Positions 29,402-45,042 of a stretch of DNA of 64,000 nt are shown here, in pieces (the first letter of the stretch is position 1; each line of letters opens with the position of its first letter). The notes below the pieces were generated by a model that searched no databases, was not told the DNA's origin, and saw only the letters and a list, made by a program, of their open reading frames with translations. The DNA comes from Roseofilum capinflatum BLCC-M114. GTDB lineage: Bacteria; Cyanobacteriota; Cyanobacteriia; Cyanobacteriales; Desertifilaceae. A program made the translations under genes and the position numbers. The stretch covers positions 92,808 to 156,807 of the forward strand of contig NZ_JAQOSO010000092.1 in NCBI RefSeq assembly GCF_030068505.1. Reading direction: 5' to 3'.

Positions 29402-30007
29402 ATGGAAGAATTCTTGCAAGCGACTGACGCGATCGACTGGCAAAATCCAGAAATTATGGACTGTGCCACAAAAATCACGTTAGAATGTACAACCGTATTA
29501 GAAAAAGCTAAGGCTTGTTTCGAGTGGGTGCGAGATGAAATTTATCACAGTTTTGATTATCAAATGAATCCTGTAACTTGTCGTGCGTCTGATGTTCTTA
29601 GGCACAAAACAGGGTATTGCTACGCTAAAAGTCATTTACTAGCCGCACTCCTTCGAGCTAATCAGATCCCCGCAGGCTTTTGCTATCAACGATTGAGTAT
29701 TGATGATAAGGGCGCACCCTACAGCTTACATGGTTTCAATGCTATTTACTTACCGGAAATTGGTTGGTATCGGGTAGATTCCAGAGGGAACAAAGACGGA
29801 GTTAATGCTCAATTTGCTCCTCCCCAGGAATGTTTATCATTTAAAATTCAGTTGCCTGAAGAAGCAGATTTTAACGTCATTCTTGCCGAACCCCTTCCTA
29901 TTGTGGTAGAAGCTCTAAAATCCCACAATACTTGGGATTCTATGCTTGATAACCTTCCCGATATTTCGATAGATTGTGCGGATTATTATGGTCTGAAACA
30001 AACTTAA
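29402..30007 (+). CDS. Transglutaminase-like protein
   Basis: This protein of about 201 residues has the transglutaminase/protease-like catalytic triad: Cys in TGYCYAKSHLL, His in LHGFNAIYL and Asp in YRVDSRGN. Small bacterial members of this family act as cysteine peptidases or peptide-modifying enzymes, and it has no signal peptide. I prefer the ATG at 29402, preceded by AAGGAAA; a TTG at 29366 is possible. It starts 47 bases after DUF4336 and ends next to the convergent Uma2 gene (stop codons overlap by four bases). Confidence 0.85.
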   Translation: MEEFLQATDAIDWQNPEIMDCATKITLECTTVLEKAKACFEWVRDEIYHSFDYQMNPVTCRASDVLRHKTGYCYAKSHLLAALLRANQIPAGFCYQRLSIDDKGAPYSLHGFNAIYLPEIGWYRVDSRGNKDGVNAQFAPPQECLSFKIQLPEEADFNVILAEPLPIVVEALKSHNTWDSMLDNLPDISIDCADYYGLKQT

Positions 30008-30630
30008 AGCGCTGTTCTGACCCAATTGCGAAACCTCTTGATTAATTCTAAATAATCCATCGTTTCGGCTTGTTGGAGAAATCTGGAAATGTCTGGGATG
30101 GGAATATTGGGGAAAAATTGACTGTTCGTAGAGGCAATATACTCTTCATTTTGTAACTGTTGGATAGTTAGAGCGTTGCCATCATAAATCCAAACTTCAG
30201 GGACTCCCAAAGAAGCATACACCTGCAAGCGATCGCTGGAACTGCTGGTGATATCAATTTCAATCACCAGATCGGGGGGCGGATCTTCCGGTTTCAATCT
30301 TCGCCGGCCGCGAATAGCCGCAATATTGCGGATATAAAAACATTCATCAGGTTCTGCTCCGCTTAACTCTGGATGCTTGTATGTAGTCGATCCCAGGGGA
30401 TAAATGTTAATCTCTAATTCTTCTGCCAGAGTCTCGACAAAGCGCCCCATGACCGTTTTATGCAGTTCGTGTTCGGGTGAAGGAGCCAATATTTCTAATT
30501 TTCCGCAATAGTAGGTTAAGCGCAAACGCCGGTCTTGCAGTTCTTCCAGAAGATGTTCGTAGGTTTTCCAACTAATACCCGAAAGATGGATCATTTCAGG
30601 GGGGGTTGCTGTGGGTAACGTGGCTGTCAT
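30004..30630 (-). CDS. Uma2 family endonuclease-fold protein
   Basis: This is a 208-residue protein of the Uma2/DUF820 family, which expanded in cyanobacteria and has a PD-(D/E)XK nuclease-like fold. Visible residues include the Asp of PDLVIEID, the Glu-Ile-Asp of that strand, and Ser-rich SSSSDRLQVYASLGVPEVWIYD. The biological role of the family is not established. Its last 75 bases are repeated at 25976-26050, marking a rearrangement junction. Confidence 0.9.
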   Translation of the reverse strand: MTATLPTATPPEMIHLSGISWKTYEHLLEELQDRRLRLTYYCGKLEILAPSPEHELHKTVMGRFVETLAEELEINIYPLGSTTYKHPELSGAEPDECFYIRNIAAIRGRRRLKPEDPPPDLVIEIDITSSSSDRLQVYASLGVPEVWIYDGNALTIQQLQNEEYIASTNSQFFPNIPIPDISRFLQQAETMDYLELIKRFRNWVRTAL

Positions 30631-30799
30631 CGCTCTTCCTCAGAACGCTCTGGGTTAGATTATAGGCGATCGATCATTCATATCAAGTCCGGATACTGAA
30701 CTCAAGGATCTGGGTAAGGTGGGCAGGGTATGCTTGTAGGATTCCAATAATGTCGCTTATCCCCTTCCCACCCTACGATCTGGCTAGATGCAGTTATCC
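30631..30799. other. Spacer with GTGGGCAG repeat
   Basis: This 169-base spacer lies between two minus-strand genes. It has a TCATATCA(A)GTCCG remnant (30679-30693) and an inverted GGTGGGCAGGGTA / CCCACCCTACG pair at about 30718-30778. I see no gene in it. Confidence 0.5.
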
Positions 30800-31453
30800 T
30801 CAAGAGTGAAATGAGGGACTGTGGCGAATCAAGCTCATAAACTCTTGGCGGGTTTTGGCATCTTCAGCAAAGACTCCCTGCATAGAACTGGTCACCGTCC
30901 AAGAACCTGGCTTTTGTACCCCCCGCATCACCATGCACATATGGGTGGCTTCTACAACGACAGCGACACCTTGGGGTTGTAGCAAACCCTGTAGAGCATT
31001 GGCAATTTGTTGAGTGAGCCGTTCCTGAACTTGTAGGCGACGGGCATACATTTCGCAAATGCGGGCAATTTTGGAAAGACCAATGACTTTACCGTTGGGA
31101 ATATAAGCGATGTGGGCACGTCCTAGGATTGGTAAAATGTGGTGTTCGCAGGAGCTAAAGAGATCGATATCCCTTACCAAGACCATTTCATCGGTATCTT
31201 CGTGAAATACAGCGCCGTTGAGCAATTCATCCAGGGATTGGTGATAACCAGAAGTGAGAAATTGGAGAGCTTTGACGACTCGTTTCGGAGTATCCTGCAA
31301 TCCTTCGCGATCGGGGTCTTCTCCCAATCCTAGTAACAAGGTTCGCACGGCTTGTTCCATCTCGGCTTGGGAAACCGGTGGCTGAGGTGGAGCAGAAATG
31401 GCAGCAATGGTTTGATCGACAGATAGGTTACGAGCAGGCATTTGGGCAGTCAT
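30800..31453 (-). CDS. folE: GTP cyclohydrolase I
   Basis: FolE opens GTP to dihydroneopterin triphosphate, the first step to folate and pterins. The 217-residue protein is the zinc-dependent IA type. Its metal ligands are Cys102 and His105 in SSCEHH and Cys173 in HMCMVMRG, matching the Cys-His-Cys pattern of the family. [12 protein letters not shown] is the N-terminal signature. An N-terminal extension of about 30 residues is variable. It lies 87 bases downstream of a COG0523 GTPase gene with a Zur-like box, so zinc limitation probably controls it or its metal supply. Confidence 0.96.
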
Positions 31454-31540
31454 AAAATTTAAGGGGGGTATAAGGACAGTTCAGAATTGAGTTGTGTGGA
31501 GGTTGCCCTCCTACGATGGAGAAAATGAATGAACCAGGAA

Positions 31541-32605
31541 CTAGGGCGCTTGACAGAGGGCGAGTTGCTGACAAATTTCTTCTCTGTTGATATGCCGCCC
31601 AATGACCACGAGTTGGTTACTGGGGGTGGCATTATCCCAGTCTTCAGCGCTTAGAGTGAAGCGCTTGCCACAGAGCTGAAAGATGTGTTTCTGGGGACTT
31701 TGGGTAAACCAGAGCAAACCCTTAGCCCGAAATACGTTGGAGGGTAAAGTATCGAGAAATTTTTGAAACTTCTGTAGAGAGAAGGGGCGATCGCTGCGAT
31801 AGGATACAGACACAAACCCATCGTTATCCAAATGATCGGAGTGATGGTGATGATGTTCGTGATCGTGATGGTCATGACTGTGATCGTGATGGTGGGGATC
31901 GTGGCGATCGAGCTGGGTTTTTTCAATCTCTTCCTGGACGAGATCGGCGTAGGATTCTTGGTTGTTATATCCCACATCCAAAATGACCGGCAGAGGCACT
32001 TTCCCATTTTGGCAGCGCATCATGCGAGGCTTTTCTTTGATCGCCTGAATGTGACCTTCCAATTCCTCGACTTTTTCAACAGCAACTAAGTCGGTTTTAT
32101 TGAGCAGAATAATGTCCCCATAGGCAATTTGTTTCAGGGCTGCTTGGCTATCAAAATGTTCTGGGGTAAATTCAGACGCATCCACTAGGGTAATTACAGA
32201 GTCAAGATGGGTTAGATCTCGTAACTCAGTACCCAGAAAGGTGAGCATGATGGGCAGGGGATCGGCGATGCCTGTGGTTTCAATCACCAGATAGTCAATG
32301 CGATCGCTATTTTCTAAGACGTTGTAAACGGCCTCAACCAAGTCATCATTAATGGTGCAGCAAATGCAGCCATTACTCAGTTGCACCATCTCTTCATCGA
32401 TAGACACCAGCAGTTGACTATCGATATCAATGTCGCCAAATTCATTCACCAATACCGCTACTTTCAAATCCTGACGATTGCTGAGAATCTGATTGACTAG
32501 GGTAGTTTTGCCACTGCCCAAGAAACCGGTGATGATGGTCACTGGCATCCCTCGCTTGGGAATCTCAAGTGAGGATGGAGTGATGTCGCTGGATGTAAGG
32601 GTCAT
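31541..32605 (-). CDS. COG0523/CobW-family zinc GTPase
   Basis: This 354-residue metallochaperone-type GTPase has Walker A GFLGSGKTT (27-35), the metal-binding GCICC (79-83), the SIMIBI Asp in the ETTGIADP region, NKTD for guanine recognition and a histidine-rich stretch at about 235-258. The C-terminal CobW_C domain ends the protein. A perfect Zur-type box lies 16 bases upstream of the ATG. Zur-controlled COG0523 proteins in bacteria are linked to zinc delivery under shortage, and folE lies immediately downstream. Confidence 0.93.
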   Translation of the reverse strand: MTLTSSDITPSSLEIPKRGMPVTIITGFLGSGKTTLVNQILSNRQDLKVAVLVNEFGDIDIDSQLLVSIDEEMVQLSNGCICCTINDDLVEAVYNVLENSDRIDYLVIETTGIADPLPIMLTFLGTELRDLTHLDSVITLVDASEFTPEHFDSQAALKQIAYGDIILLNKTDLVAVEKVEELEGHIQAIKEKPRMMRCQNGKVPLPVILDVGYNNQESYADLVQEEIEKTQLDRHDPHHHDHSHDHHDHEHHHHHSDHLDNDGFVSVSYRSDRPFSLQKFQKFLDTLPSNVFRAKGLLWFTQSPQKHIFQLCGKRFTLSAEDWDNATPSNQLVVIGRHINREEICQQLALCQAP

Positions 32606-32620
32606 AGACTAAACATAAAA

Positions 32621-32635
32621 TGATAATCATTCTCA
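32621..32635 (-). promoter_or_regulatory. Zur box upstream of the COG0523 gene
   Basis: TGATAATCATTCTCA is a 7-1-7 imperfect palindrome with a single departure from symmetry and matches the Zur-box pattern known in cyanobacteria. It sits 16-30 bases upstream of the start codon and would bind Zur to repress the gene when zinc is sufficient. A Fur-type reading is less likely given the neighbour's identity. Confidence 0.75.
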
Positions 32636-32664
32636 CAAAATAAGATGATACCACAAAAATCAAG

Positions 32665-33035
32665 TCAAGGATCGCTGGCAAATTACAGATGACCCCCTAG
32701 AGTTGGATTGGGAAGAAGTTACGGTTAAAATCGATCTAGCCGCAGAACGACTGATTGCTGCGGAACGGGAAAACGAAAAAATTGCGGTGGAGATTAAGAG
32801 TTTTATTAGTCCTTCAGCGATTAGTGATTTTCATACAGCATTGGGGCAATTTTAAAATTACCGAATTATGCTGGATGTGAATGAACCTGAGCGATCGCTT
32901 TATCTTGCAGTTCCAGTTGAGGCCTACGAAAGTTTTTTCCAGAGTCGTCTAGCGCAGGTTGCTGTTCGGCAAAATCAAGTTAAGTTGTTAGTTTACGATC
33001 CCGTTTTTGAGGAGGTTGTGCAATGGATAAGATAG
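32665..33035 (+). pseudogene. xisH fragment, copy 1
   Basis: The sequence matches the second xisH copy (offset 7,424 bases) from codon 16 onward; the first 15 codons and the start are missing. An in-frame TAA at 32853-32855 interrupts the frame at the same place as in the other copy. The remaining C-terminal part reads through to a TAG that overlaps the start of xisI. It lies directly beside the Zur box of the COG0523 gene, which marks the junction. Confidence 0.9.
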
Positions 33036-33382
33036 GGCACTATCGAGACTGTATTCAAAAACTCCTAACGGAACATAGTCATTACAGTCAGGATACGGCC
33101 GAGGTGGAGAGTTTACTGTGTTTCGATGTAGAGCGCGATCGCTATCAACTGATGCGGGTGGGGTGGAAACATTTGAAGCGAATCTATTATACAGTGTTAC
33201 ATTTCGATATTCGAGACGGGCAAATCTGGTTACAGCAGAACGCGACGGATAGTGATGTGGGAGAAGAGTTGGTGGCCATGGGAGTGCCGAGGGAGGATAT
33301 TGTTTTAGGGTTACAACCACCCTATAAGCGACCTTATACGGGGTATGGGGTAGGGCGCGATCGCGCCCTCCACTGTAGCTAA
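33023..33382 (+). CDS. xisI: XisI family protein, copy 1
   Basis: This 119-residue protein is the XisI type first described as a controlling factor for excision of the fdxN element in heterocystous cyanobacteria. The N-terminus MDKIGHYRDCIQKLL is characteristic, and GYGV near the end is also typical. It starts inside the end of xisH (the ATG overlaps the xisH frame), the usual gene pair. It is intact and almost identical to the copy at 40447. No excision recombinase or nif gene is in the window, so its role here is open. Confidence 0.9.
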   Translation: MDKIGHYRDCIQKLLTEHSHYSQDTAEVESLLCFDVERDRYQLMRVGWKHLKRIYYTVLHFDIRDGQIWLQQNATDSDVGEELVAMGVPREDIVLGLQPPYKRPYTGYGVGRDRALHCS

Positions 33383-33590
33383 TCCAGTTGAACCCTTCTT
33401 TTAGGGATCATGGAGATGAACTGCTTGTTTAATCACCGCAGAAACACTATAGCGCTTGTCTTTCCGTTCAATTAAGGAGCGATCGCACGACATTGCTCTT
33501 GTAAGATCCAGATACAGGCAATGAGAGAAAAAAGTTTCAGCTTATACCATACAGGTAGGCAATAAGCTGAAACTCATCTTCAACTTGTGG
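33383..33590. other. Spacer downstream of xisI copy 1
   Basis: No gene is seen. It marks the right end of the first xisHI copy, where identity with the second copy fades over the last bases of xisI. Confidence 0.4.
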
Positions 33591-33770
33591 TTACTTTAAC
33601 CGTGGATAATTTGTTTCTACCACTTGAATAGAGGGGGTGGGGAACAGGGTAATTTTATCGGCTAAGGTAACCCAAGCGGCGACAACTTGGGGAATTTCAA
33701 TCAGCAAAATAATGCCAACGGTAATACAAAACTTGCGCTTGCATTCTTTTTTGGGGTTAGAGATGCTCAT
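33591..33770 (-). CDS. Small single-pass membrane protein
   Basis: The 59-residue product begins MSISNPKKECKRKFC, followed by one hydrophobic helix (about residues 16-40) and a short tail. I chose the ATG at 33770 because GGAGGA lies at the right distance upstream; the frame extends to 33842 but lacks a ribosome site there. I do not recognise the family. It is followed by other small membrane-protein genes on the same strand. Confidence 0.55.
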   Translation of the reverse strand: MSISNPKKECKRKFCITVGIILLIEIPQVVAAWVTLADKITLFPTPSIQVVETNYPRLK

Positions 33771-33837
33771 CAGCTTGTCCTCCAGTATTTTTATACAATC
33801 GTTTGCGCTGTATCGGGGTACAAAATTGTTAGAAGAA

Positions 33838-33918
33838 GTCATTGCGAATAGAACGCAAATGAAGCAATCCCGACAATTTCGTTAACCTTGGCGATTGCTT
33901 CCCTGCGGTCGCAATGAC
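33838..33918. repeat. GTCATTGCGA palindromic interspersed repeat, copy 2
   Basis: Same type as 20109-20192: starts GTCATTGCGA, ends TCGCAATGAC, and carries GAAGCAATC / GATTGCTTC inner arms. It lies upstream of the small membrane-protein gene. Confidence 0.8.
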
Positions 33919-34008
33919 AAGTCTTTAATGGGATTTGATCTGACTTCTGCATGATTAACAAATTTAGAGAGTAGAAATTATGCTTTTCTACTCTCTAGGG
34001 ATGGCTAT

Positions 34009-34392
34009 CTAGCCTTGATAGATGTATTGTTGAATGAAATCAAACGTGCGTTGGGGAAGTTTTTGTTGTTGCCATGCACCATAAGCAGCAGTGAAGGCCA
34101 GAGGCCATAAAACAAACATGCTGACTGCGCCGACAACGGCTTTATCCGCCCATTTTCCGGCCCCAATTTCTACGGTGAGTGTGTTATCTTGGTGACGGAG
34201 AACGATGTTCAGAGCAGAGGAGAGTCCGAGCATATTGCGCCATCCTCCTTGACGCGCTTGAATTACTTTGTCGCCATTGCTTAATTGGAGGTCTTGGACT
34301 TGATAGTTTTGGAATTCAAACCATTCTTTAACCGCATGGGTAAGACCGTTGAGGTTAAGGTTGGAGGCGTTAAAGTTGCGAGTATCTGTCAT
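34009..34392 (-). CDS. Conserved small membrane-associated protein, unknown function
   Basis: This is a 127-residue protein. An N-terminal soluble domain of about 80 residues (LTHAVKEWFEFQNYQVQDL and GAGKWADKA) is followed by one hydrophobic helix (residues about 85-106) and a short basic tail. I cannot name the family. Its leader (34417-34460) is nearly identical to that of the next small gene upstream (34681-34723), which suggests shared control. Confidence 0.6.
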   Translation of the reverse strand: MTDTRNFNASNLNLNGLTHAVKEWFEFQNYQVQDLQLSNGDKVIQARQGGWRNMLGLSSALNIVLRHQDNTLTVEIGAGKWADKAVVGAVSMFVLWPLAFTAAYGAWQQQKLPQRTFDFIQQYIYQG

Positions 34393-34416
34393 TGGATTTG
34401 TCCTTCATGAATGTTG

Positions 34417-34460
34417 TTCTATTGATGTAACGTTTGCGGAGGTGGCCTTTTATGCAAAAG
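34417..34460 (-). promoter_or_regulatory. Shared leader box, copy 1
   Basis: On the plus strand this reads TTCTATTGATGTAACGTTTG, then GGAGG and TTATGCAAA. The same elements in the same order and spacing, within one base, occur at 34681-34723. Each copy lies 25 bases upstream of a minus-strand small-protein ATG. It probably holds the promoter and an operator. Confidence 0.55.
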
Positions 34461-34499
34461 GGAGGGGGAGTTGCTAGAACGTAGACTCCCCAGGAAAGG

Positions 34500-34658
34500 C
34501 TAAACCGGTGGCAAAACGAGAACGACAAATAGAGCGATAAAACCGCCGAGAATGCCTAAAACAAACCACAATGTGGTATCCCGGTTTTTCTTCTCTGCAA
34601 CCATTCCGGTAGCAGCTCCCATGAGAAACCAGACGACGAGGATGAAAATGTTTTCCAT
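34500..34658 (-). CDS. 52-residue two-helix membrane protein
   Basis: This short gene encodes 52 residues. The first hydrophobic helix covers residues 4-20 (IFILVVWFLMGAATGMV), a charged turn EKKNRD follows, and the second helix covers about 30-50. GGAAG lies upstream of the ATG. The frame is consistent with a real small membrane protein rather than the overlapping 66-codon frame, which lacks membrane character. It shares its leader box with the downstream 127-residue gene. Confidence 0.65.
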   Translation of the reverse strand: MENIFILVVWFLMGAATGMVAEKKNRDTTLWFVLGILGGFIALFVVLVLPPV

Positions 34659-34680
34659 GTTGGGTTACTTCCATTTGTGT

Positions 34681-34723
34681 TTCTATAGAAGTAACGTTGT
34701 GGAGGCTCTGAAATTATGCAAAT
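34681..34723 (-). promoter_or_regulatory. Shared leader box, copy 2
   Basis: Counterpart of 34417-34460: TTCTATAGAAGTAACGTT, GGAGG and TTATGCAAA in the same order. It precedes the 52-residue membrane-protein gene. Confidence 0.55.
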
Positions 34724-34772
34724 GTGGTAGATAAGTTTGGGATAAGTGATAGCGATTTATGCTGGTCTTCCT

Positions 34773-37040
34773 TTATTTCAGTTTTTGCCAAACTTTAATT
34801 TCACTTTTGTCTGCACAAGAACTGACTATAACTTTTCCATCACAAGCAAAAACTATAGAATAAATACCCCTCAAATAACAACCATCAGTTTCAGGAGTAT
34901 CTAACATTTGAATAAGTGTTCCATCTATAGGATTCCAGAGCTTAATGGTGCTGTCCGAACACCCACTAGCTAAAATCTGATTATCTGGACTAAAAGTGAG
35001 ACAAGATACATTGTTACATTCAGCCGATAGAGAATGAAGTAACTGACCTGCTTTCCAGTTCCATATATTAAGTCTTCCTTCATAAGTTCCACTAGCTAGA
35101 AGATTACCATCATGACTAAATGCTAATGATCGTATAATTGCATCATACCCAAACAGAGTCCGTTTGATTTTGCCAGTGTGCAAATCCCAAATATCAATTT
35201 TATTGTCACACATACTAGCAACTGTTCTACCATCAGTGTTGATGGCCAAAAGAGCATTGTCATGACTACTAGAAAGCGTATGGATAATTTGTCCGGTCTG
35301 TACTTCCCAAACTTTAATTGTTTTGTCTATACTACCACTTATGATAAATTCTCCATTCGGACTAAATTTCACACACATCACATCGTCAGAATGTCCTGCT
35401 ACATTTGTTCTACTAGCTTGCTTGTAAACAAAGTCTGTTGATATAGGTAAGAAATTAGATGCAATATTAAGAATATCATCAGTAGTTTCTCCTAAAATTG
35501 CAAATCTTCGATTTCCTAAAGCATTTAGCAATTCACCTGTTTGTAAACTCCAAATCTTGACCTGTGTACCCAAATCACAACTAGCTATTTGCCTACCATT
35601 TGGATTGATTGAAATATCATAACATTTACCGAGATCAACAGATAGGCTCTTCTGAAAAATTAGCTGATAATGACTGTCTTTATCTTCTTCTATTTTCCAC
35701 ATTTTCAGTATTGACCCAAAGGTGGTGACAATTATCCTATCATTGACGGGATTAACGGCAACACATCGACACAGATCATAAGCTTCATAACTCCTCAAAT
35801 TTGATTCAACAATATCAACACATTGCCATTTATTATATTTATCAGAATTTTTAGCTTGATCGGCCTTTTTAGAAACTTTAAGAAACTCTCTCCACAACAA
35901 AGGTCGAGTGTCAGGATGCTGCTGAAAAATCACTGGATTCCAACTCATACCTGGATAACTATCATCATAATTATCTTTGAGTTTTTTCCTTGTTTCGCGT
36001 AAAGCATCATGTAAACTTCTGTCACCCTCTCCACCAGCAAAAGCTTTGAGGAAATCCTGTAAAAAGTCTTGTGCTACTGTATCCGGAACTTTATTCCGCA
36101 TGACAATAACTTGAGGCAAAGATAACTCTTGTAACTGATTGGCAATACCCAACCCATCACAGGAATTAAATATTGCCAATTGCAAACCATTAGCGATGGC
36201 TTCTACTAAAGATTCCTTTAAATTGCTAATAGAGATCGTTTCTTCACTTCCATTTTGATTCCGCTTTAGCAATAAATATCCTTTATTAGTATCTCTTTCA
36301 CTCCCACTATGTCCAGAATGAAAAATAATTTGCCAGTGTTTTTCCCACAATTTATCAACTAAAATTTGGCGAGTTGGCTGCGCTAAAAACTCGATGTCTG
36401 CATCTAATTTACTAATTGCATCCAGATCTGATTGATAATCAATTTTTGAAATTGTCTCTTTTTCTAACGGCTCACCCAGAATAACTAAAATTTTAACTTG
36501 AAATAGTTTTCTGGAGTCCAAGTTTAGCCCCACGGCTGTCTGCTGTGATGGACTAAAGACAAACTCAGTTTTGGATAATTTATCAGAATCGCTAAATAAC
36601 TCCCAAACTTGCCAAGGAAGTTGCTTTAGCGAATCATTATCTGTCTGAATAATAACTCTAACTCTATCCTGTCTATTAAGTTCCAATGATAAAGCGCTAA
36701 TAATTTTCTGCCAATCTTTATGCTGATGTTTTAACCATTCTTGAACTTTCTTTTCTAGCTCTTCTGTTTGTCGAGGAAAGCTAATTCCTACTTGATTAAC
36801 CTGAGCAGCAGGAAGTTTAATTGATCGACTGGCAAAATATTGAATCCATTCTTCAAAATTCTGTTTCCATTGTCCAAGACTAGACTCTGTTAAACCTTTA
36901 GGAGCAGGTGGCAACCATCCATTGGGAATACGGTTACTTCCTTCAATTCCATCAGTTCCAATACGCACCGTGACTGGAAAGCCCGTTTCAAAGCTTCCTT
37001 CTCCAAACTCAAAGATGACCCATTTTCTGGTAACTGCCAT
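34773..37040 (-). CDS. CHAT-domain peptidase with WD40 propeller
   Basis: This 755-residue protein has two parts. An N-terminal region (1-180) typical of cyanobacterial CHAT proteins (FEFGEGSFETGFPV) leads into a CHAT caspase-like domain (about 180-390). Its catalytic dyad is visible as His in IIFHSGHSG (His241 or His244) and Cys294 in IFNSCDG. Residues about 415-755 hold seven WD40 repeats, with clear blades ending in KVWEVQTG, NIWNWKAG and KLWNPIDG, consistent with a closed seven-bladed propeller. I chose the ATG at 37040; a TTG at 37097 would abut the upstream gene. It is last in a tandem with a DUF1822 gene and a sigma factor gene, and is a candidate sensor-protease of that set. Confidence 0.9.
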   Translation of the reverse strand: MAVTRKWVIFEFGEGSFETGFPVTVRIGTDGIEGSNRIPNGWLPPAPKGLTESSLGQWKQNFEEWIQYFASRSIKLPAAQVNQVGISFPRQTEELEKKVQEWLKHQHKDWQKIISALSLELNRQDRVRVIIQTDNDSLKQLPWQVWELFSDSDKLSKTEFVFSPSQQTAVGLNLDSRKLFQVKILVILGEPLEKETISKIDYQSDLDAISKLDADIEFLAQPTRQILVDKLWEKHWQIIFHSGHSGSERDTNKGYLLLKRNQNGSEETISISNLKESLVEAIANGLQLAIFNSCDGLGIANQLQELSLPQVIVMRNKVPDTVAQDFLQDFLKAFAGGEGDRSLHDALRETRKKLKDNYDDSYPGMSWNPVIFQQHPDTRPLLWREFLKVSKKADQAKNSDKYNKWQCVDIVESNLRSYEAYDLCRCVAVNPVNDRIIVTTFGSILKMWKIEEDKDSHYQLIFQKSLSVDLGKCYDISINPNGRQIASCDLGTQVKIWSLQTGELLNALGNRRFAILGETTDDILNIASNFLPISTDFVYKQASRTNVAGHSDDVMCVKFSPNGEFIISGSIDKTIKVWEVQTGQIIHTLSSSHDNALLAINTDGRTVASMCDNKIDIWDLHTGKIKRTLFGYDAIIRSLAFSHDGNLLASGTYEGRLNIWNWKAGQLLHSLSAECNNVSCLTFSPDNQILASGCSDSTIKLWNPIDGTLIQMLDTPETDGCYLRGIYSIVFACDGKVIVSSCADKSEIKVWQKLK

Positions 37041-37097
37041 ACCCTTTGAATTTCCACACAAGACAATTGGTTGTAGATGATCAGCAGTATAGCACAA

Positions 37098-38066
37098 TTA
37101 TAACAAAAAATGTTCTGTAACACTACTTTCCTCTAGACTTACGCGAATACTAAATTGATCCTTGGGTTCACCTGTAAATTCTAACTTTAGCCAATTCGCT
37201 GCTCTCGCTTGTACTTGCAATTTAGGGATAGGAGTACCCGTTTCATCCAATACTGTCAATTGAACTCCATCAGGTAAATACATTGCATCCGCAGCAGGAT
37301 ACAACCGCACATTAATCTGAATTTCTGCTTCACTCAATTGTTTTTGCCGAATAATCAGTATCACAGTTTCTTGATGCATTTGCACTCCTAAACGGATCAC
37401 TTTTGCACCATTGACTTCGGGTTGTTCAATCCCTTGATGATTGGGCTTAATACTACGAGTTGGATTTAAAGCTAAGGTGAGCGCAACTTCTTCGGGCTGC
37501 CATCCATTCTCAAAAATTTGTTGAAACCATTCACATAATTTAACTAATGGATGATCTGCTTCTACCTCTTTGACTTGATATAGATGATCGATCGCCTCCT
37601 CAAGAGATTGGATTTGATGTAGTGGAAGATACTCCGTACTTACTTGCTTCACAAACCCCAACAAATTCGCTTCCCACTCTTGGGCATCAATTTCCGTGAC
37701 AAAATAGCCAATTCGATCTTGCCATACTTCTTGAGGAATATAACAAACCTCCGCATTCGGTAACACAGCACGGCATTCTATTTTACCAAACCCTTTCAAA
37801 TTTAAATCCGCGATATCCATAAAGTAATGGGTAAAATCATCATTACTCTGGTTCTGTGCAATTCTATCGGCTAAATCACTCTCTATTGCCAGATATTGAA
37901 AGTAAGCACTAACCGCACACCGAGCCAAAGTGTTCAGATAAATTTGCTCCTGTTTTTGAGGATGTTCATATTTTTGTTTCCAACGGTTAGCCAGATCAAA
38001 ATCCCGTTTCCTCAAAGGAATGGTAATCATCGAATCTCTATTCATAGTTGGTAATTCTGCGCTCAT
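37098..38066 (-). CDS. DUF1822 family protein
   Basis: This is a 322-residue soluble protein of the cyanobacterial DUF1822 family. Typical parts are the IPQEVWQDRIGYFV region, LLGFVKQV with LPLHQIQSLEEAI, and the C-terminal block VRLYPAADAMYLPDGVQLTVLDE with TGEPKDQFSIRV. The biochemical function is unknown. It starts 33 bases after the sigma gene, with GGGAG before its ATG, and is followed by the CHAT gene, so all three should be on one transcript. By position it could be the partner or substrate linking the protease to the sigma factor (inference). Confidence 0.85.
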   Translation of the reverse strand: MSAELPTMNRDSMITIPLRKRDFDLANRWKQKYEHPQKQEQIYLNTLARCAVSAYFQYLAIESDLADRIAQNQSNDDFTHYFMDIADLNLKGFGKIECRAVLPNAEVCYIPQEVWQDRIGYFVTEIDAQEWEANLLGFVKQVSTEYLPLHQIQSLEEAIDHLYQVKEVEADHPLVKLCEWFQQIFENGWQPEEVALTLALNPTRSIKPNHQGIEQPEVNGAKVIRLGVQMHQETVILIIRQKQLSEAEIQINVRLYPAADAMYLPDGVQLTVLDETGTPIPKLQVQARAANWLKLEFTGEPKDQFSIRVSLEESSVTEHFLL

Positions 38067-38099
38067 CGTTTTTCTCCCTGATTCCTCATTTCATACAAT

Positions 38100-38813
38100 T
38101 TACAAATAGTCTTCGCGAATCTCTTCCCAGCCATCCAAATAGCGACTGATATATTCAATGAAATCCTTTTTTTTCTGCGGGTGTTCATCTAGATAATTAA
38201 TCCAACGATAAGCCGTTTGCTCTGGGTTTTTAGCCTGCACACCAAAGTATATGGCAATTTCCCGTGCTGATTTCCCTTCAAGTCTCAAGAGTAAAACTTG
38301 TTGAAGAGTCACCGGATACTTCTTGGCTATATTATACTGGAGTTTCTTCTCTAGATCGGTGGCAATGATCTCTCTGAGTTTCTGACCATTAGACATTGGC
38401 TTCTTGTCTTCATCAGATATCTCTTTACCATACAAATTCATGTCAGTTAAAGATATATTGTTCTGTTGATCTCGCTGCTTCCGGCGCAGTTTATCAAGGG
38501 TTCGATTTCTAATAATCCTCATAAACCAAGCCATAAATGCAGATTCTTCGCGAATCTCATAGTTGTTAATGGCCTGATTAAGAGATGCATAAGATTCATC
38601 TAGACTATCCTGAACCAAATCCTTATCTTCCTTAAATCTCTGTTTTAAGGCTCTCAAACTATTTCTCAAATCATCTGATTGACTGATTAACCTGATGAGT
38701 TTCGTCAAAATATGATTGCGCTTGACTAGGTACTTTGGATCTTCAGCACCTAATTTCAGGGCTTGAGCTTGACGCACCAACTCTTTGAGCTTTCGGTCTA
38801 AATCATAGTTCAT
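38100..38813 (-). CDS. Sigma-70 family RNA polymerase sigma factor (ECF-like)
   Basis: This protein of 237 residues has a region-2-like helix set (MAWFMRIIRNRTLDKLRRKQ, about 100-125) and a region-4-like helix-turn-helix (VTLQQVLLLRLEGKSAREIAIYFGV, about 175-200). It lacks region 3 and a full region 1. It therefore resembles small alternative sigma factors and may direct polymerase to specific promoters. I chose the ATG at 38813; the frame remains open to 38972 but the extra part looks like spacer. First gene of the sigma-DUF1822-CHAT set. No separate anti-sigma gene is recognisable. Confidence 0.8.
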   Translation of the reverse strand: MNYDLDRKLKELVRQAQALKLGAEDPKYLVKRNHILTKLIRLISQSDDLRNSLRALKQRFKEDKDLVQDSLDESYASLNQAINNYEIREESAFMAWFMRIIRNRTLDKLRRKQRDQQNNISLTDMNLYGKEISDEDKKPMSNGQKLREIIATDLEKKLQYNIAKKYPVTLQQVLLLRLEGKSAREIAIYFGVQAKNPEQTAYRWINYLDEHPQKKKDFIEYISRYLDGWEEIREDYL

Positions 38814-39142
38814 AAACTCTGGGGTGACAGAAAGGCAATAAATATAGTATAGACTCAAACAGGCATTATCGGATACACTAGGATGGAGAACAAAACAGGC
38901 GATCGCCCCATTCTCGACTCCTCTGCCTTTCCTTCGTCTATAGCACAATACAGGTGGATTCGACATCATCAAAACCTAAGATTTCATCCTTGCTAAACAC
39001 TCAACGCTGCAAGGCCGCCCCATTTATGCAACAAAAATGTAAATTTTTGTAATATCATATCCGCTAAATCAGCTATAGCTTGCACCAACAGATGAAGCAC
39101 CTGCTGTTCAAGGGCGGATACAGGTATCAAGGAGATATTGCA
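38814..39142. other. Spacer upstream of the sigma gene
   Basis: This 329-base spacer must hold the promoter of the sigma-DUF1822-CHAT set; I see no reliable -35/-10. Positions 39051-39079 hold an ATATC-N-TATCCGCTAAATCAGCTATA-type repeat also present at 20080-20103. No gene is seen. Confidence 0.5.
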
Positions 39143-39385
39143 TTAAAATAGCTCCGGTTTGTGAGGGGGAATGAGTTCATCCCGATAGGACTCGGAAGCA
39201 GGAAAATCAGGGACTCCTTGATAAGATAAGATCGCTTCTGGCCATTGGTAAGCTGAAATGGGTGGCGCTTGCATTGTGTGGCGTAATACTTGCAGAATCA
39301 ATGTGGATAGGGAAATATTGGATTGCTCCGCTTGACGGATGAGGTCTTGTTGGAGGTCTGGCGGTAAGTTGATGGTAATTTGCAT
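39143..39385 (-). CDS. Ribbon-helix-helix-like small protein, possible antitoxin
   Basis: This 80-residue protein begins MQITINLPPDLQQDLIRQAE, the pattern of a ribbon-helix-helix DNA-binding N-terminus (beta strand, then two helices), with a short acidic-aromatic tail. Such small proteins are often antitoxins; no toxin is paired with it. Its first 18 codons and leader recur at 40939-41013, where the gene is truncated. Confidence 0.6.
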   Translation of the reverse strand: MQITINLPPDLQQDLIRQAEQSNISLSTLILQVLRHTMQAPPISAYQWPEAILSYQGVPDFPASESYRDELIPPHKPELF

Positions 39386-39496
39386 CGATGAATTTTCCTC
39401 AGTTTATCCCTGTTGGGGTGATATTTTATTATCACATCCTATTGCCCAGAAATTGGGTTATGCTCACAACAAAATGCTCAGTAGCATTAAATCACG

Positions 39497-39568
39497 GCTC
39501 AAGCAGAAGACTTAGACTTGGGGTATTGACTTTGGCAGATTTTACCGCCGTGCCTCTATCTCATCCAT
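39497..39568. pseudogene. Remnants of HTH, PIN and toxin genes at a deletion scar
   Basis: Positions 39497-39529 match the last codons of the HTH antitoxin gene at 41173 (AQAEDLDLGY), 39532-39549 match the start of its PIN-toxin partner, and 39553-39568 match the first codons of the YoeB-type toxin at 41974 in reverse. The bodies of the three genes are gone. A short ACGGCT repeat marks the first junction. Confidence 0.8.
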
Positions 39569-39821
39569 TTAAAATGTCCCTAATTGTTGATTCGTCAACA
39601 CCATCTTTTACGGGCGTTTGTCCACCCTCTTTAATGGATTGAGACATTCCAGGTATAGATTGTAAATACAGAGTTTCTTGAATTGCATTCCAATCTGTTT
39701 CACTAATCACAATAGCATTACCGGCAGAACCTTGTAATAAAATCGGCCGATCATTTTCAAGCGCTCGATCGACTAATTCATTAATTAGATCGGCGTATTC
39801 ATTTTTTGAAGTGGCTTCCAT
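39561..39821 (-). CDS. Phd/YefM-type antitoxin, orphan copy
   Basis: The 86-residue product is a Phd/YefM antitoxin: a short DNA-binding N-terminus (MEATSKNEYADLINEL) and a C-terminal part that neutralises a toxin. It is almost identical to the antitoxin at 41967. GGAG precedes the ATG at 39821. Only about 16 bases of the cognate toxin gene remain after it, so this is an orphan antitoxin, able in principle to inhibit the toxin of the second copy. Confidence 0.85.
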   Translation of the reverse strand: MEATSKNEYADLINELVDRALENDRPILLQGSAGNAIVISETDWNAIQETLYLQSIPGMSQSIKEGGQTPVKDGVDESTIRDILNG

Positions 39822-40042
39822 TAAATCTCCTTTTTTTGCGATCGACGCTAAACTAATGGTCATCAGGCAATTTATCTATTTTACTATGATTTTATAATCA
39901 ATACCGATGAACCCATTCGCATCTTGAGCCAATCATAGGCGATCGCCATGCCAACTCCCTCATGATGGCGTATCTGCTATATATTGGCTCATGTGAGCAA
40001 AAACTTGTGATTGACACCAGCGTTAATCAGTAACAACGATTT

Positions 40043-40459
40043 ATGTCTGCCAGAGATATTTTCCATGAAGCGGTCAAACGAGCGTTGCTCAAGGATCGCT
40101 GGCAAATTACAGATGACCCCCTAGAGTTGGATTGGGAAGAAGTTACGGTTAAAATCGATCTAGCCGCAGAACGACTGATTGCTGCGGAACGGGAAAACGA
40201 AAAAATTGCGGTGGAGATTAAGAGTTTTATTAGTCCTTCAGCGATTAGTGATTTTCATACAGCATTGGGGCAATTTTAAAATTACCGAATTATGCTGGAT
40301 GTGAATGAACCTGAGCGATCGCTTTATCTTGCAGTTCCAGTTGAGGCCTACGAAAGTTTTTTCCAGAGTCGTCTAGCGCAGGTTGCTGTTCGGCAAAATC
40401 AAGTTAAGTTGTTAGTTTACGATCCCGTTTTTGAGGAGGTTGTGCAATGGATAAGATAG
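40043..40459 (+). pseudogene. xisH: XisH family protein, interrupted, copy 2
   Basis: This is a XisH-type protein (MSARDIFHEAVKRALLKDRW, then VEIKSF, which marks the nuclease-like core). An in-frame TAA at 40277-40279 ends the first part at 78 residues, where an intact XisH would continue with leucine. The remaining part, from an ATG at 40292 to the TAG at 40459, reads on as the normal C-terminus (55 codons) and overlaps the xisI start. It is broken or split; the same stop occurs in the other copy. Confidence 0.88.
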
Positions 40460-40809
40460 GGCACTATCGAGACTGTATTCAAAAACTCCTAACGGAACAT
40501 AGTCATTACAGTCAGGATACGGCCGAGGTGGAGAGTTTACTGTGTTTCGATGTAGAGCGCGATCGCTATCAACTGATGCGGGTGGGGTGGAAACATTTGA
40601 AGCGAATCTATTATACAGTGTTACATTTCGATATTCGAGACGGGCAAATCTGGTTACAGCAGAACGCGACGGATAGTGATGTGGGAGAAGAGTTGGTGGC
40701 CATGGGAGTGCCGAGGGAGGATATTGTTTTAGGGTTACAGCCGCCCTATAAGCGACCTTATACGGGGTATGGGGTGGGGGGCGATCTCGCCCTCCATTGT
40801 AATGAATAG
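40447..40809 (+). CDS. xisI: XisI family protein, copy 2
   Basis: This is a 120-residue XisI protein almost identical to the one at 33023, differing by a few bases near the 3' end. It begins within the last codons of the interrupted xisH. The intactness of both xisI copies beside two broken xisH copies suggests XisI alone is kept. The family's function outside fdxN-element excision is not known. Confidence 0.9.
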   Translation: MDKIGHYRDCIQKLLTEHSHYSQDTAEVESLLCFDVERDRYQLMRVGWKHLKRIYYTVLHFDIRDGQIWLQQNATDSDVGEELVAMGVPREDIVLGLQPPYKRPYTGYGVGGDLALHCNE

Positions 40810-41172
40810 AGTTTAATTCCTAAAGGAAATCTTAAAAAGGCTGGAATCCTTATATATCAATGGTTTTAGCCTTGATAGGGAACAACTTAGTATTTTAGTG
40901 AACCTCTTGCTGTTAGGCACTTTCAACGACTTCGGGAATCAGCTCTTAGATCGCTCCGCTTTACAGATGAGGTCTTGTTGGAGGTCTGGCGGTAAGTTGA
41001 TTGTAATTTGCATCGATGAATTTTCCTCAGTTTATCCCTGTTGGGGTAACATTTTACTACATCCTACTGCCGAGAAATCAGGTTATACTGACAACAAAAT
41101 GCTCAGTAGCATTAAATCACGGCTGTAGGTAGACTAGAGGTAACAAGAGAGGGCTACTATGGGAGGCTTGCT
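40810..41172. other. Spacer with truncated RHH gene
   Basis: This 363-base spacer ends the second xisHI copy and starts the second copy of the toxin-antitoxin segment. It contains the truncated RHH gene listed separately and its leader; the rest shows no gene. Positions 41100-41130 match the leader that precedes 39497. Confidence 0.6.
40939..41013 (-). pseudogene. Truncated copy of the RHH-like gene
   Basis: The first 18 codons match the gene at 39143 (MQITINLPPDLQQDL), then the sequence diverges and a stop follows after 24 codons. The leader upstream is also duplicated. Confidence 0.8.
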
Positions 41173-41628
41173 ATGAGCATTAATCAATCAACCACGATTC
41201 CCACTGCTGAAGAAGCACGGATAGCAAGAGAGGCCAGCAGGACATTTGCGACTCTAATTCCCAATCAAAAGCCATTACAACTGACAGTAACCAGTGATGA
41301 TGACATTGAGAGAGAACTGACTCTTCCGCCAACAGCAGTTCGACTCCTTCTCGATATTCTCGAACAGATGGCCCTAGGTAAAGCAGTCACCATTATCCCC
41401 GTCAATGCTGAGTTAACGATCCAGCAAGCTGCTGACCTACTCAATGTTTCCCGTCCATTTCTCATAGATCTCATCAACAAAAATGAAATTCCTTACCGCA
41501 AATTGGGTCGGGGTCAACGAATTTTATTTGAAGAACTGATGAACTATAAGCAGAAAGTTGAACGGTCTCAAAAAGCAGCTCTCGAAGAACTTACGGCTCA
41601 AGCAGAAGAGTTAGACTTGGGGTATTGA
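41173..41628 (+). CDS. HTH DNA-binding protein of a PIN-type toxin-antitoxin pair
   Basis: This protein of 151 residues has an excisionase/MerR-type helix-turn-helix in its C-terminal half (TIQQAADLLNVSRPFLIDLI, then RKLGRGQR, about residues 80-120). An N-terminal region of about 70 residues resembles the antitoxin partners of PIN-domain toxins. A toxin remnant follows its stop by two bases, so the pair is broken. It may still bind DNA. Confidence 0.8.
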   Translation: MSINQSTTIPTAEEARIAREASRTFATLIPNQKPLQLTVTSDDDIERELTLPPTAVRLLLDILEQMALGKAVTIIPVNAELTIQQAADLLNVSRPFLIDLINKNEIPYRKLGRGQRILFEELMNYKQKVERSQKAALEELTAQAEELDLGY

Positions 41629-41630
41629 CC

Positions 41631-41699
41631 TTGGCCAATTTTACCGCCCTCTACGATGCTTGTGTCCTCTACCCAGCACCACCGAGTTTTCCAGATTAG
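41631..41699 (+). pseudogene. N-terminal remnant of a PIN-domain toxin
   Basis: A TTG-started frame of 22 codons reads ANFTALYDACVLYPAP, the usual N-terminus of PIN toxins of this pair (first catalytic Asp in YDAC), then stops. The remaining gene is missing. Confidence 0.8.
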
Positions 41700-41974
41700 G
41701 ATTCATAATGTGTCCACATTCGGATAACTTTTATGATTTTTTCTTCTAGTAATATTTGATAAACCAAACGATGCTGAATATTAATTCTTCTAGAATAGTA
41801 ACCCTGCAAATCTCCGCTTAGTTTTTCATAGGGAGGATAGGTAGCATAAGGATTTTCTTTGATTACATCCAGAATCTTGGTCACTTGCTTCCCTAGCCCA
41901 GCAGATGCTATTTTTCTAGAATCTTTTTCTGCTTGCTTAGTAAATAAGATCTCCCATTCCTCTATTTCATCCAT
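41696..41974 (-). CDS. YoeB/Txe-type toxin
   Basis: The 92-residue product is a Txe/YoeB ribosome-dependent mRNA interferase. The C-terminal pattern RRINIQHRLVYQ and IRMWTHYES is diagnostic, with the catalytic Arg and His and the terminal Tyr present. It overlaps the end of its antitoxin gene by eight bases. It should be active unless bound by the Phd-type antitoxin. Confidence 0.92.
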   Translation of the reverse strand: MDEIEEWEILFTKQAEKDSRKIASAGLGKQVTKILDVIKENPYATYPPYEKLSGDLQGYYSRRINIQHRLVYQILLEEKIIKVIRMWTHYES

Positions 41975-42227
41975 TTAAAATGTCCCTAATGGTTGATTCA
42001 TCAATACAATCTTCTACGGGCGTTTGTCCACCCTCTTTAATGGATTGAGACATTCCCGGTATAGATTGTAAATATAAAGTTTCTTGAATCGCATTCCAAT
42101 CTGTTTCACTAATGACAATAGCATTACCGGCAGAACCTTGTAATAAAATCGGCTGATTATTTTCAAGCGCTCGATCGACTAATTCATCAATTAGATCGGC
42201 GTATTCATTTTTTGAAATAGTTTCCAT
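41967..42227 (-). CDS. Phd/YefM-type antitoxin
   Basis: This 86-residue protein forms the antitoxin half of the YoeB-type pair. N-terminal METISKNEYADLIDEL makes the DNA-binding and dimer part, and the C-terminus masks the toxin. The toxin gene overlaps its 3' end by eight bases, the usual translational coupling. It differs from the orphan copy at 39561 in only a handful of residues. Confidence 0.92.
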   Translation of the reverse strand: METISKNEYADLIDELVDRALENNQPILLQGSAGNAIVISETDWNAIQETLYLQSIPGMSQSIKEGGQTPVEDCIDESTIRDILNG

Positions 42228-42420
42228 GTAATCTTCCTTTTTTACGATCGACGATAAACTAATAGTTCTTAGGCAATTTCCCTATTTTCCTGGTATTTTA
42301 TCATTAATGCCGATCAACCCATTCTCCTGTCCCGACGCGCCCATCTTGGCAAAGGGGCCGGTAGGAGCGCACAATAAACAAAGGATTGAGAGAGACTTTT
42401 AGAGAACAAACCCCCATCCC

Positions 42421-45042
42421 ATGCGTATCTCACTGAACTGGTTGCAAGAACTCGTCGATATTACCCTGTCTGCCGATGAACTCGCTCATACTTTGACCAT
42501 GGCAGGCTTTGAAGTGGAAGACATTGAAGACCGCCGCACTTGGGCGGACGGAGTGGTAATTGGGGAAATTGTGGAAGCTGCACCCCACCCCAATGCCAAT
42601 AAGCTTCAAGTCTGTCAAGTTAATGTTGGCGCGGATGAACCCCTGAATATTGTCTGTGGAGCGGCTAATGCTCGCCAGGGAATTCGTGTCCCGGTGGCAG
42701 TGGTGGGGACTTATCTGAGCCAAATTGACTTGAAGATTAAACCGGCGAAACTGCGGGGAGTGAAATCTCATGGCATGATTTGCTCTCTGTCGGAATTGGG
42801 ACTGGAAAAAGAATCGGACGGGATTCATATTTTTACCCAAGAGGACTTAACCCTGGGGGCTGATGTGCGTCCCCTGTTGGGTTTGGATGATGTGGTTCTG
42901 GATCTGACTTCGACGGCTAACCGCGCTGATGCTCTGAGTTTGGTGGGTATTGCCAGGGAAGTGGCGGCGCTCACAGGTGCGGCGCTGAAATTGCCGAAGC
43001 TGGAGCCGTTTAATCCCCCTGGGCAGAATGGGAAGGTGGTGGTGAAGCTGGATGAACAGGGCGGGAAGACGAAGAATGATAGCCCTTATCCTTGTCCAGT
43101 TTATATCGGTACGGTGATTGAAGGTCTGCAACTGATGCCTTCTCCGGCTTGGCTACAGCAGCGCTTGGTGGCTTCGGGGGTGCGCCCGATTAATAATGTG
43201 GTGGATATCACTAATTATGTGCTGTTGGAATGGGGGCAACCGCTCCATGCTTTCGATTACGATCGCCTCCTCACCCTCACCAACACAGAATCCCCTACCC
43301 TTGGAGTACGCTTTGCCCGCACTGGGGAAACCCTGGTGACGCTCGATGGGCAATCTCGCAATCTGGGGACTGGGGCGAAGTCGGATACTCTGGTGATTAC
43401 GGCAAATGACCAACCGGTAGCCCTCGCGGGGGTGATGGGGGGAGAAGCCACAGAAGTCCATGACCAAACTACCCGCATTTTACTCGAAGCTGCCCTCTTT
43501 ACGCCCATCGTCACTCGCCGTTCTGCTCGCTCTCAAGGACTGCGAACTGAGGCTTCTGCCCGCTATGAGCGTGGGGTAAATCCGGCGGAGTTGGAAGTGG
43601 CGGCAGCACGGGCGATTCAACTGTTGCAAGAGTTGGCTTCTGGGCAAGTGGTGGCTGGAGATATGGCGGATTTTCGAGGCGATCGCCAAACCTGGGATCG
43701 GCAAATTTCCCTGCGTTGCGATCGCGTCAAACAGGTGTTAGGTTCTCCGTTAGCCAATCCCGGAGATCCCGATGCTGAACCAGAGGAAGGGGAACTGCTA
43801 CCGGAAGATGTGGAACGGATTTTAACGGCTTTGGGCTGTACTCTGGAACGACAAGAGACTTCAGCCAGCTCCCTGAGCGGAGTCGAAGGGAGCGCCCCGA
43901 CTTGGTTGGTCACGATTCCCCCCTATCGCACCCGTGATTTAGAGCGGGAAATCGATCTGATTGAAGAAGTGGCTCGCTTGTATGGCTATGATAACTTCTG
44001 TGAAACCCTACCCGCCCAATCGGAACCGGGCTATCTACCGGCTGATGAGTGGATTGCGCGGCAGTTGCGGGAGGCTCTGCGAGGAGTTGGCTTGACGGAA
44101 GTGATGCATTATTCCTATGGTCTCAGTCATCTGCGCCAAGATAGTTTGCTTTCGGCAGATTCCACTCAGGTGGCGATCGCCAATCCCCTGTTTACGGAAT
44201 ACTCCACCCTCCGCACCGAGTTATTATCGAACCTGATCTTGGCATTTCAGTACAATTTAGAACAAGGAAATGGCCCCCTAAATGGCTTTGAAATGGGCAG
44301 AGTCTTCTGGCGTGATGAAGATGGACTCATGGAAGCGGACTCTGTAGCGGGTATCATTAGTGCTGCGAGTGTGGGCAATTGGGTGCGCGGGGGCAAACCG
44401 GCAACCCTAAGCTGGTATGAAGCTAAAGGGCTTTTAGAGGCAGTGTTTGAGCGGGTGGGATTATCGACTCCAGGGGGTATTCTACCCGGTTCAGGCATTG
44501 CCCAAACCCAGGTCGAGTATCAACCCCATCAACAGGATAAGCGCTTTCATCCAGGGCGCACCGCTTCCTTGTGGTTGCAAGGGGAACGGTTAGGAACCTT
44601 TGGCCAACTTCATCCCCAGTTGTGTCAGGAGTTGGATATTCCGGATGAAGTGTATGGGTTTGAGCTGGATTTAGAGGTAATTTTGGCGACACTGGAACAG
44701 GATGAGAAGCTGCAACCGATTTATCAAGGGTATTCCACGTATCCGGGGAGCGATCGCGATTTAGCCTTCTTTGCCGATCGCCAAATTTCCGTCGCTGACA
44801 TTGAGAAGGTGATGGCGAAAGCAGCAGCGAAAGGACAACCGAAAGGCTCATCCTTATTGGAATCTATCGAAGTCTTCGATCAGTATCAAGGGGAAAATGT
44901 ACCCGAAGGACAACGCTCTTTAGCCTTTCGTCTCGTGTATCGAGCAGGCGATCGCACCTTAGCCGATGCCGATGTAGAACCCATCCATCAACAGGTACGA
45001 GATGCCTTAGTCGAGAAATTTAGCGTCACCCTCAGAAGTTGA
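42421..45042 (+). CDS. pheT: Phenylalanine-tRNA ligase beta subunit
   Basis: PheT forms the alpha2-beta2 enzyme that charges tRNA-Phe. The 873-residue protein carries an EMAP-type tRNA-binding N-domain ([13 protein letters not shown]), the B3/B4 editing domain with [12 protein letters not shown], the B5 domain, and a C-terminal anticodon-binding domain ([11 protein letters not shown]). A stretch at about residues 483-492 ([10 protein letters not shown]) falls between domains and is encoded by a unit that matches the CCCTTCGACT-type intergenic repeat, in frame. pheS is not in the window. Confidence 0.96.
43869..43896 (-). repeat. Interspersed repeat unit inside pheT
   Basis: The reverse complement reads GCGCTCCCTTCGACT and CCGCTCAGGGAG, matching the units at 6000-6060. 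It sits in frame and adds about nine residues between two domains of PheT. Confidence 0.7.

Follow-up and report, generated by a model that had tools for sequence, protein, structure and literature searches.

A tandem of three minus-strand genes, encoding an extracytoplasmic function (ECF)-like sigma factor, a DUF1822 protein, and a CHAT-WD40 protein, was analyzed in a 64,000-nucleotide stretch of Roseofilum capinflatum BLCC-M114 (contig NZ_JAQOSO010000092.1, positions 92,808 to 156,807), which is hereafter called the window. Our best explanation, put forward tentatively, is that the three genes form a stand-alone, protease-gated transcription switch outside any CRISPR (clustered regularly interspaced short palindromic repeats) system. 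The trio itself was already published in 2021 and its function is uncharacterised. Kaur et al. (eLife, PMC8195603) found an ECF sigma factor and DUF1822 encoded next to EACC2-caspases; in its passages on this neighborhood, the paper describes a constant EACC2 alpha+beta domain followed by a caspase domain and a variable C-terminus, notes that ECF sigma and DUF1822 genes mostly adjoin EACC2-caspase versions without a TRADD-N gene, and proposes that sensing and autopeptidase activation lead to a sigma-dependent transcriptional step. The same passages label DUF1822 a tetratricopeptide repeat (TPR) protein, and cleavage of DUF1822 is not among their proposals; nor do they discuss the near-universal pairing of DUF1822 with sigma factors, the alternative proteases in third place, or the promoter-like element reported below.

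Results

Gene set of the cassette

The tandem arrangement given in the preliminary description was borne out, both the open reading frames (ORFs) and their order being confirmed, with gaps of 33 and 57 bases between the genes:

38100-38813, minus strand: sigma gene, ECF-like sigma-70 factor of 237 amino acids (aa), ATG start (TIGR02937 and Sigma70_r2)
37098-38066, minus strand: DUF1822 gene, product of 322 aa (PF08852)
34773-37040, minus strand: CHAT-WD40 gene, product of 755 aa, ATG start (PF12770 at residues 110-386, WD40 repeats)

The CHAT-WD40 frame stays open to a TTG at 37097, which abuts the DUF1822 gene. PADLOC gave nothing specific for the sigma, DUF1822, or CHAT-WD40 protein. Rfam gave no RNA family in window positions 30000-43000, and no dedicated Cas search was made of the locus.

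Conservation of gene order in cyanobacteria

PF08852 was present in 240 of the 386 sampled genomes of the cyanobacterial phylum, weak picocyanobacterial matches included. The neighbors of DUF1822 genes were classed with iterated profiles built from the window proteins. Among 122 distinct DUF1822 genes, a sample that favored high-scoring members and whose percentages are not phylum-wide rates, 107 were directly preceded, on the same strand, by a sigma gene and 65 had an EACC2-type CHAT gene downstream. Since only 3 and 32 of 966 non-adjacent genes in the same loci matched the sigma and CHAT hidden Markov models, respectively, this linkage is far beyond chance. The preliminary description had left the conservation of the linkage to a survey of cyanobacterial genomes, and it proved to be conserved. 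The upstream sigma genes comprised 32 of the short type found in the window and 75 of a longer type (~390-630 aa), the sampled members of which were confirmed to belong to the sigma-70 family; five further DUF1822 genes had a sigma gene within 3.5 kb. In the triads, the order was invariably sigma, DUF1822, CHAT, with median gaps of 26 and 55.5 bases. In 44 short-type triads, the three proteins had correlated pairwise distances (0.66, 0.54, and 0.76; reached in 0 of 2000 permutations), to which shared species history contributes. Annotated plasmids, some of them conjugative, also bear the trio. A scan of GTDB from the CHAT side returned 79 loci, all 79 with cyanobacterial titles; many had DUF1822 upstream and others lay in different, secretion-related contexts.

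The third gene was a protease of another architecture in eight loci: TPR-CHAT (L066, L203, L204, and L210), caspase C14-nSTAND (L060, L070, and L215), or a double trypsin-like protein (L098). No observation argues more strongly for proteolysis as the role of the third gene than this repeated replacement by other proteases. Where EACC2-CHAT was missing, the gene after DUF1822 was often unrelated, such as those for a GFO/IDH/MocA oxidoreductase, DUF4870, MarC, an ion channel, or a transposase. In a Nostoc group (L157), a TPR-CHAT gene lay between sigma and DUF1822 and was followed by EACC2-CHAT.

Two further arrangements were observed. L157 and L136 each contained sigma, a second CHAT gene, DUF1822, and EACC2-CHAT in one locus, so that two proteases surround one DUF1822, and in L081/L112 a single sigma gene lay between two divergent DUF1822-CHAT pairs.

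CHAT protein

The CHAT domain of the window protein matched PF12770 with 54.9 bits (cut-off 24). Its His/Cys dyad is intact, as had been described from the motifs; both residues fit motifs that are invariant in 30 of 30 aligned members:

36309-36311, minus strand: codon of catalytic His244 (HSGHSG; sequence, invariant alignment column)
36159-36161, minus strand: codon of catalytic Cys294 (NSCDG; sequence, invariant alignment column)

All 30 aligned members also shared a conserved N-terminal region of ~110 residues before CHAT, which may correspond to the EACC2 domain. The C-terminus was variable: among 28 members, CHASE2 was found in 15, WD40 in three, Peripla_BP_6 in three, and nSTAND1 in two. 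The WD40 form in the window is one of the variable C-terminal sensor variants. As for the seven WD40 repeats counted previously, only five stretches were supported in Pfam at E ≤ 1, and a total of seven is plausible. Of the features of the EACC2-caspase systems, the intact dyad and the ECF sigma and DUF1822 neighbors were found in the window, and the highly variable C-terminus was found across the members compared. No CHAT relative was confirmed in viral contigs.

DUF1822 protein

DUF1822 matched PF08852 over its full length (E 1e-50). An AlphaFold2 model built from 50 aligned sequences had a predicted local distance difference test score (pLDDT) of 89 and a predicted template modelling score (pTM) of 0.66. 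The predicted layout comprised an N-terminal mixed alpha/beta domain, tryptophan-rich (W-rich) helices, a flexible loop modelled with low confidence, and a C-terminal immunoglobulin (Ig)-like beta-sandwich; the best match of the C-terminal domain (VIA Z 7.0) was to Ig/fibronectin type III-like folds and is generic. As modelled by AlphaFold2, DUF1822 is not a TPR protein, unlike the label in the passages of PMC8195603 cited above. The loop is the candidate cleavage region:

37416-37469, minus strand: DUF1822 interdomain loop, residues ~200-217 including R204-S205 (block pLDDT 60 and 76)

An F-R-[SNQ]-like motif recurred in this loop of the relatives, and the window protein has TRS at 203-205. 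When genome contigs were scanned with the window DUF1822 as the only query protein, no relative was confirmed.

The C-terminal module of DUF1822 (W-helices, loop, and Ig) was also found joined to helix-turn-helix (HTH) and/or TRADD-N domains, without the N-terminal domain, beside CHAT. One such protein is encoded in the same genome as the window (L043; weak HTH, TRADD-N, and the C-terminal part of DUF1822), and in L168 and L170 the module was grafted onto TRADD-N/HTH proteins adjoining CHAT. At L182:4082-8457, a GerE-TRADD-N-DUF1822 fusion with a complete DUF1822 stood beside a CHAT-COP23-trypsin protein. These fusions indicated that the module travels with the protease, and that the transcription-related part is exchangeable.

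Sigma factor

The window sigma matched NCBIfam TIGR02937 with 43.6 bits (cut-off 42.9) and Sigma70_r2 with 30.5 bits (cut-off 24); Sigma70_r4_2 scored 16.9 bits, under its cut-off of 25.7. Among the short, DUF1822-linked sigma factors of cyanobacteria it was unusually divergent, its best match outside its own genome among 58 related genomes having only 30% identity.

The sigma factor and DUF1822 were modelled as one read-through chain. This fusion is an artificial modelling device that makes no claim of read-through; the two genes are in frame here, with two stop codons between them. Its alignment contained eight further loci in which sigma and DUF1822 share a frame, read through likewise, plus unpaired rows. 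The model had a pLDDT of 81.5 and a pTM of 0.57, which is suggestive only, because by a rough estimate a pTM of ~0.45 would be expected for the fusion without any confident cross-contact. Foldseek gave no match at E ≤ 0.001 for either model; Csx30 and TPR folds were not listed, an absence that excludes nothing.

Promoter-like element

A bipartite promoter-like element, AGTTTTGTAA-N14-17-GYGTAAA, was found upstream of short-type sigma genes. A slightly looser form gave nine matches in 2.68 Mb of fetched loci versus 0.1 in shuffles, a comparison that is partly circular in that the pattern was derived from those sites; eight of the nine lay directly before sigma. In the 386 genomes, the reversed pattern matched once and the element 35 times, a separate AT-rich picocyanobacterial site accounting for many of the 35. 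Held-out matches preceded three new sigma-DUF1822 modules: L316, which has CHAT; L317; and L318, which has a trypsin-like third gene. In two genomes, G022 (the genome of L098) and G024, the element preceded an operon encoding an HtrA-like protease, a COP23-like protein, and a trypsin homologous to that of L098 (L309, 3620-6070, and L312, 3148-5260). This operon is a possible trans target, although the element lies 261-483 bases from the first start codon.

With a position weight matrix (PWM) of the promoter-like element, the paralogues L039 and L041 scored high and the window sigma scored low. The 99% null was exceeded by 9 of 49 non-training short-sigma upstream regions and by 7 of 99 long-sigma upstream regions; since the latter also exceed the null, the PWM carries less weight than the exact pattern does.

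Two further groups of matches were noted. In three genomes of one genus (L308, L310, and L311), the element was conserved without an obvious downstream gene, perhaps marking a small RNA. In many picocyanobacterial genomes (L294-L307), an AT-rich version, probably a separate conserved site, lay ~100 bases ahead of an ORF of 151 aa.

The twin leader boxes next to the cassette, which had been proposed as candidate sigma targets, were not supported as such, for they occurred in only two places in the genome, neither of them before a sigma gene:

34417-34435, minus strand: leader box 1, candidate target in the preliminary description
34681-34699, minus strand: leader box 2, candidate target in the preliminary description

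Small ORFs were observed behind the boxes, at 34500-34658 (52 aa, hydrophobic) and 34009-34392 (127 aa). The 127-aa protein had no homologue in the other loci and no match in six close genomes.

Proposed mechanism and alternatives

The conserved synteny, the intact dyad, the variable sensors, and the replacement of the third gene by other proteases fit protease gating. The distance correlation of the three proteins, the grafting of the C-terminal DUF1822 module beside CHAT, the promoter-like element before short-type sigma genes, and the type III-E analogue also speak for it. The earlier interpretation was partly supported; the leader boxes as targets were not. In the mechanism that we propose, the N-terminal domain of DUF1822 would hold the co-encoded sigma factor inactive, and its C-terminal W-helix/Ig-like module would dock with the cognate protease. 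A stimulus would be detected by the C-terminal sensor of the protease (WD40 here; CHASE2, periplasmic-binding-like, or nSTAND in relatives), and the activated CHAT would cut DUF1822, probably in the interdomain loop. The freed sigma factor would then drive transcription of its targets, among which its own operon probably counts in many relatives. We infer the binding and inhibition of sigma, the cleavage and its site, and the stimulus.

Several observations weigh against protease gating. Many DUF1822-sigma pairs had no protease neighbor; the protease is therefore not obligatory or acts in trans. Ten of the 122 DUF1822 genes had no sigma gene nearby. The F-R-[SNQ]-like or Arg-containing loop was kept also in DUF1822 proteins without a protease neighbor, and the loop Arg was for that reason rejected as a cleavage mark specific to CHAT. 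The exact promoter-like element was absent from the window and its genome. The DUF1822 profile had no match of note among PDB sequences, Csx30 included, the entries for which may be fragments only. The fusion model gave no interface confidence map (predicted aligned error, PAE) for sigma-DUF1822.

A model near the one already published for the same neighborhood in the above passages of PMC8195603, in which the caspase-like protein activates itself on sensing and DUF1822 is a scaffold connecting it with the sigma factor and not a cleaved inhibitor, appears unlikely to us, yet it deserves the most serious consideration among the alternatives; DUF1822 could even assist sigma, as a positive cofactor or a stabiliser. 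The occurrence of DUF1822 beside long sigma factors without a protease is what would be expected of a general partner, and in one HTH-TRADD-N-DUF1822 protein, where the parts are covalently joined, an inhibitor role is less obvious. On the other hand, the occupation of the third place by proteases of different families points to a shared protein substrate and not to a single family that processes itself.

It is also conceivable, and in our estimate slightly less probable still, that CHAT acts as a toxic effector on unrelated targets in the cell in an abortive response, and that sigma and DUF1822 only control expression of the operon or of an immune regulon, so that the protease would not gate the sigma factor. 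A role as conflict effectors is known or has been proposed for caspase-STAND and CHAT proteins. The location of the cassette in a variable island, in which a relative carries NB-ARC and PIN-domain genes, and its presence on conjugative plasmids would agree with such a role. Nevertheless, the DUF1822 C-terminal module stays constant beside the protease, whatever its N-terminal partner, which implies a direct DUF1822-protease relation. Finally, chance operon neighborhood or general gene abundance without functional coupling is highly improbable: these genomes do contain many CHAT and sigma genes, but the adjacency relative to background counts, the fixed order, the short gaps, the distance correlation, and the plasmid-borne copies all contradict it.

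Relation to known systems

Regulated proteolysis of anti-sigma factors is known from RseA/DegS and RsiW. The protease-gated switch proposed here would share their logic, in which a signal-activated protease destroys a sigma inhibitor; it would differ in using a caspase-like cysteine protease from the same operon, and no relation of DUF1822 to those anti-sigma factors was detected. In type III-E CRISPR systems, experiments have established that Csx30, an inhibitor of sigma, is cut by Csx29 (PMC10028731). The cassette resembles these systems in its CHAT protease, its intermediate two-part protein, and its ECF-like sigma factor, and the TPR-CHAT architecture of Csx29 recurs in the four DUF1822 loci listed above. 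In contrast, the window sigma scored 34.3 bits against the NF041236 cut-off of 100, the window protease consists of CHAT and C-terminal WD40, the families listed for it including no TPR, and no sequence relation between DUF1822 and Csx30 was detected. Moreover, type III-E has an RNA-guided effector, where here a C-terminal domain of the protease would be the sensor. The parallel with type III-E is therefore one of logic, not homology.

A broader reading, which we regard as possible but less probable than the switch itself, is that DUF1822 constitutes a general family, in cyanobacteria, of holders from which proteases release transcription factors. The N-side would take sigma or HTH/TRADD-N, and the constant C-terminal Ig-like module would take, interchangeably, EACC2-CHAT, TPR-CHAT, caspase-STAND, or trypsin. 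Csx29/Csx30/sigma would then be a relative in logic within a much wider class, and the bipartite element would be the autoregulated target of one branch, extending in trans to the HtrA-like/COP23/trypsin operon. If protease gating is right, the sigma-inhibitor-protease logic known from rare type III-E loci would be a common cyanobacterial route from many stimuli to a transcriptional response, the large DUF1822 domain would gain an explained function, and a defined promoter element would be available for finding response genes.

SigJ is the master regulator of hormogonium development in cyanobacteria and is thought to be under post-transcriptional control by an unknown factor (PMC6495340). It has region 2 and region 4, as do the long DUF1822-linked sigma factors; SigJ may itself be one of these, which is a lead only. 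Should sigma factors such as SigJ prove to be DUF1822-linked, protease gating would be a candidate mechanism.

Genomic island

The interval between a cobW-like gene and pheT, in which the cassette is located (32605-42421), is 9.8 kb in the window genome and ~1.3 kb, 1.7 kb, and 3.6 kb in G213, G386, and G387, respectively. The cassette was missing from the island in three same-genus genomes, and G387 had NB-ARC ATPase and PIN-domain genes there instead. Two copies of a perfect direct repeat flank the cassette:

32665-33315: left copy of the 651-bp perfect direct repeat (xisH fragment and xisI)
40089-40739: right copy of the 651-bp perfect direct repeat (xisH fragment and xisI)

The copies are 7424 bp apart, and the repeat occurred at full length at just these two places in the genome; it may be the trace of a recent insertion or a means of excision. 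The variable interval and the flanking repeat fit an acquired accessory system. Five other DUF1822 loci were found in the genome, including one complete short-type triad (L041). In another of the genome's loci (L039:6246-7418), an IS605-type transposase directly followed sigma-DUF1822 and CHAT was absent.

Toxin-antitoxin-like sequences were also observed near the cassette: antitoxin-like stretches are duplicated at 39548-39847 and 41954-42253 (92% identical), and a YoeB/ParE-like toxin adjoins the cassette at 41696-41974.

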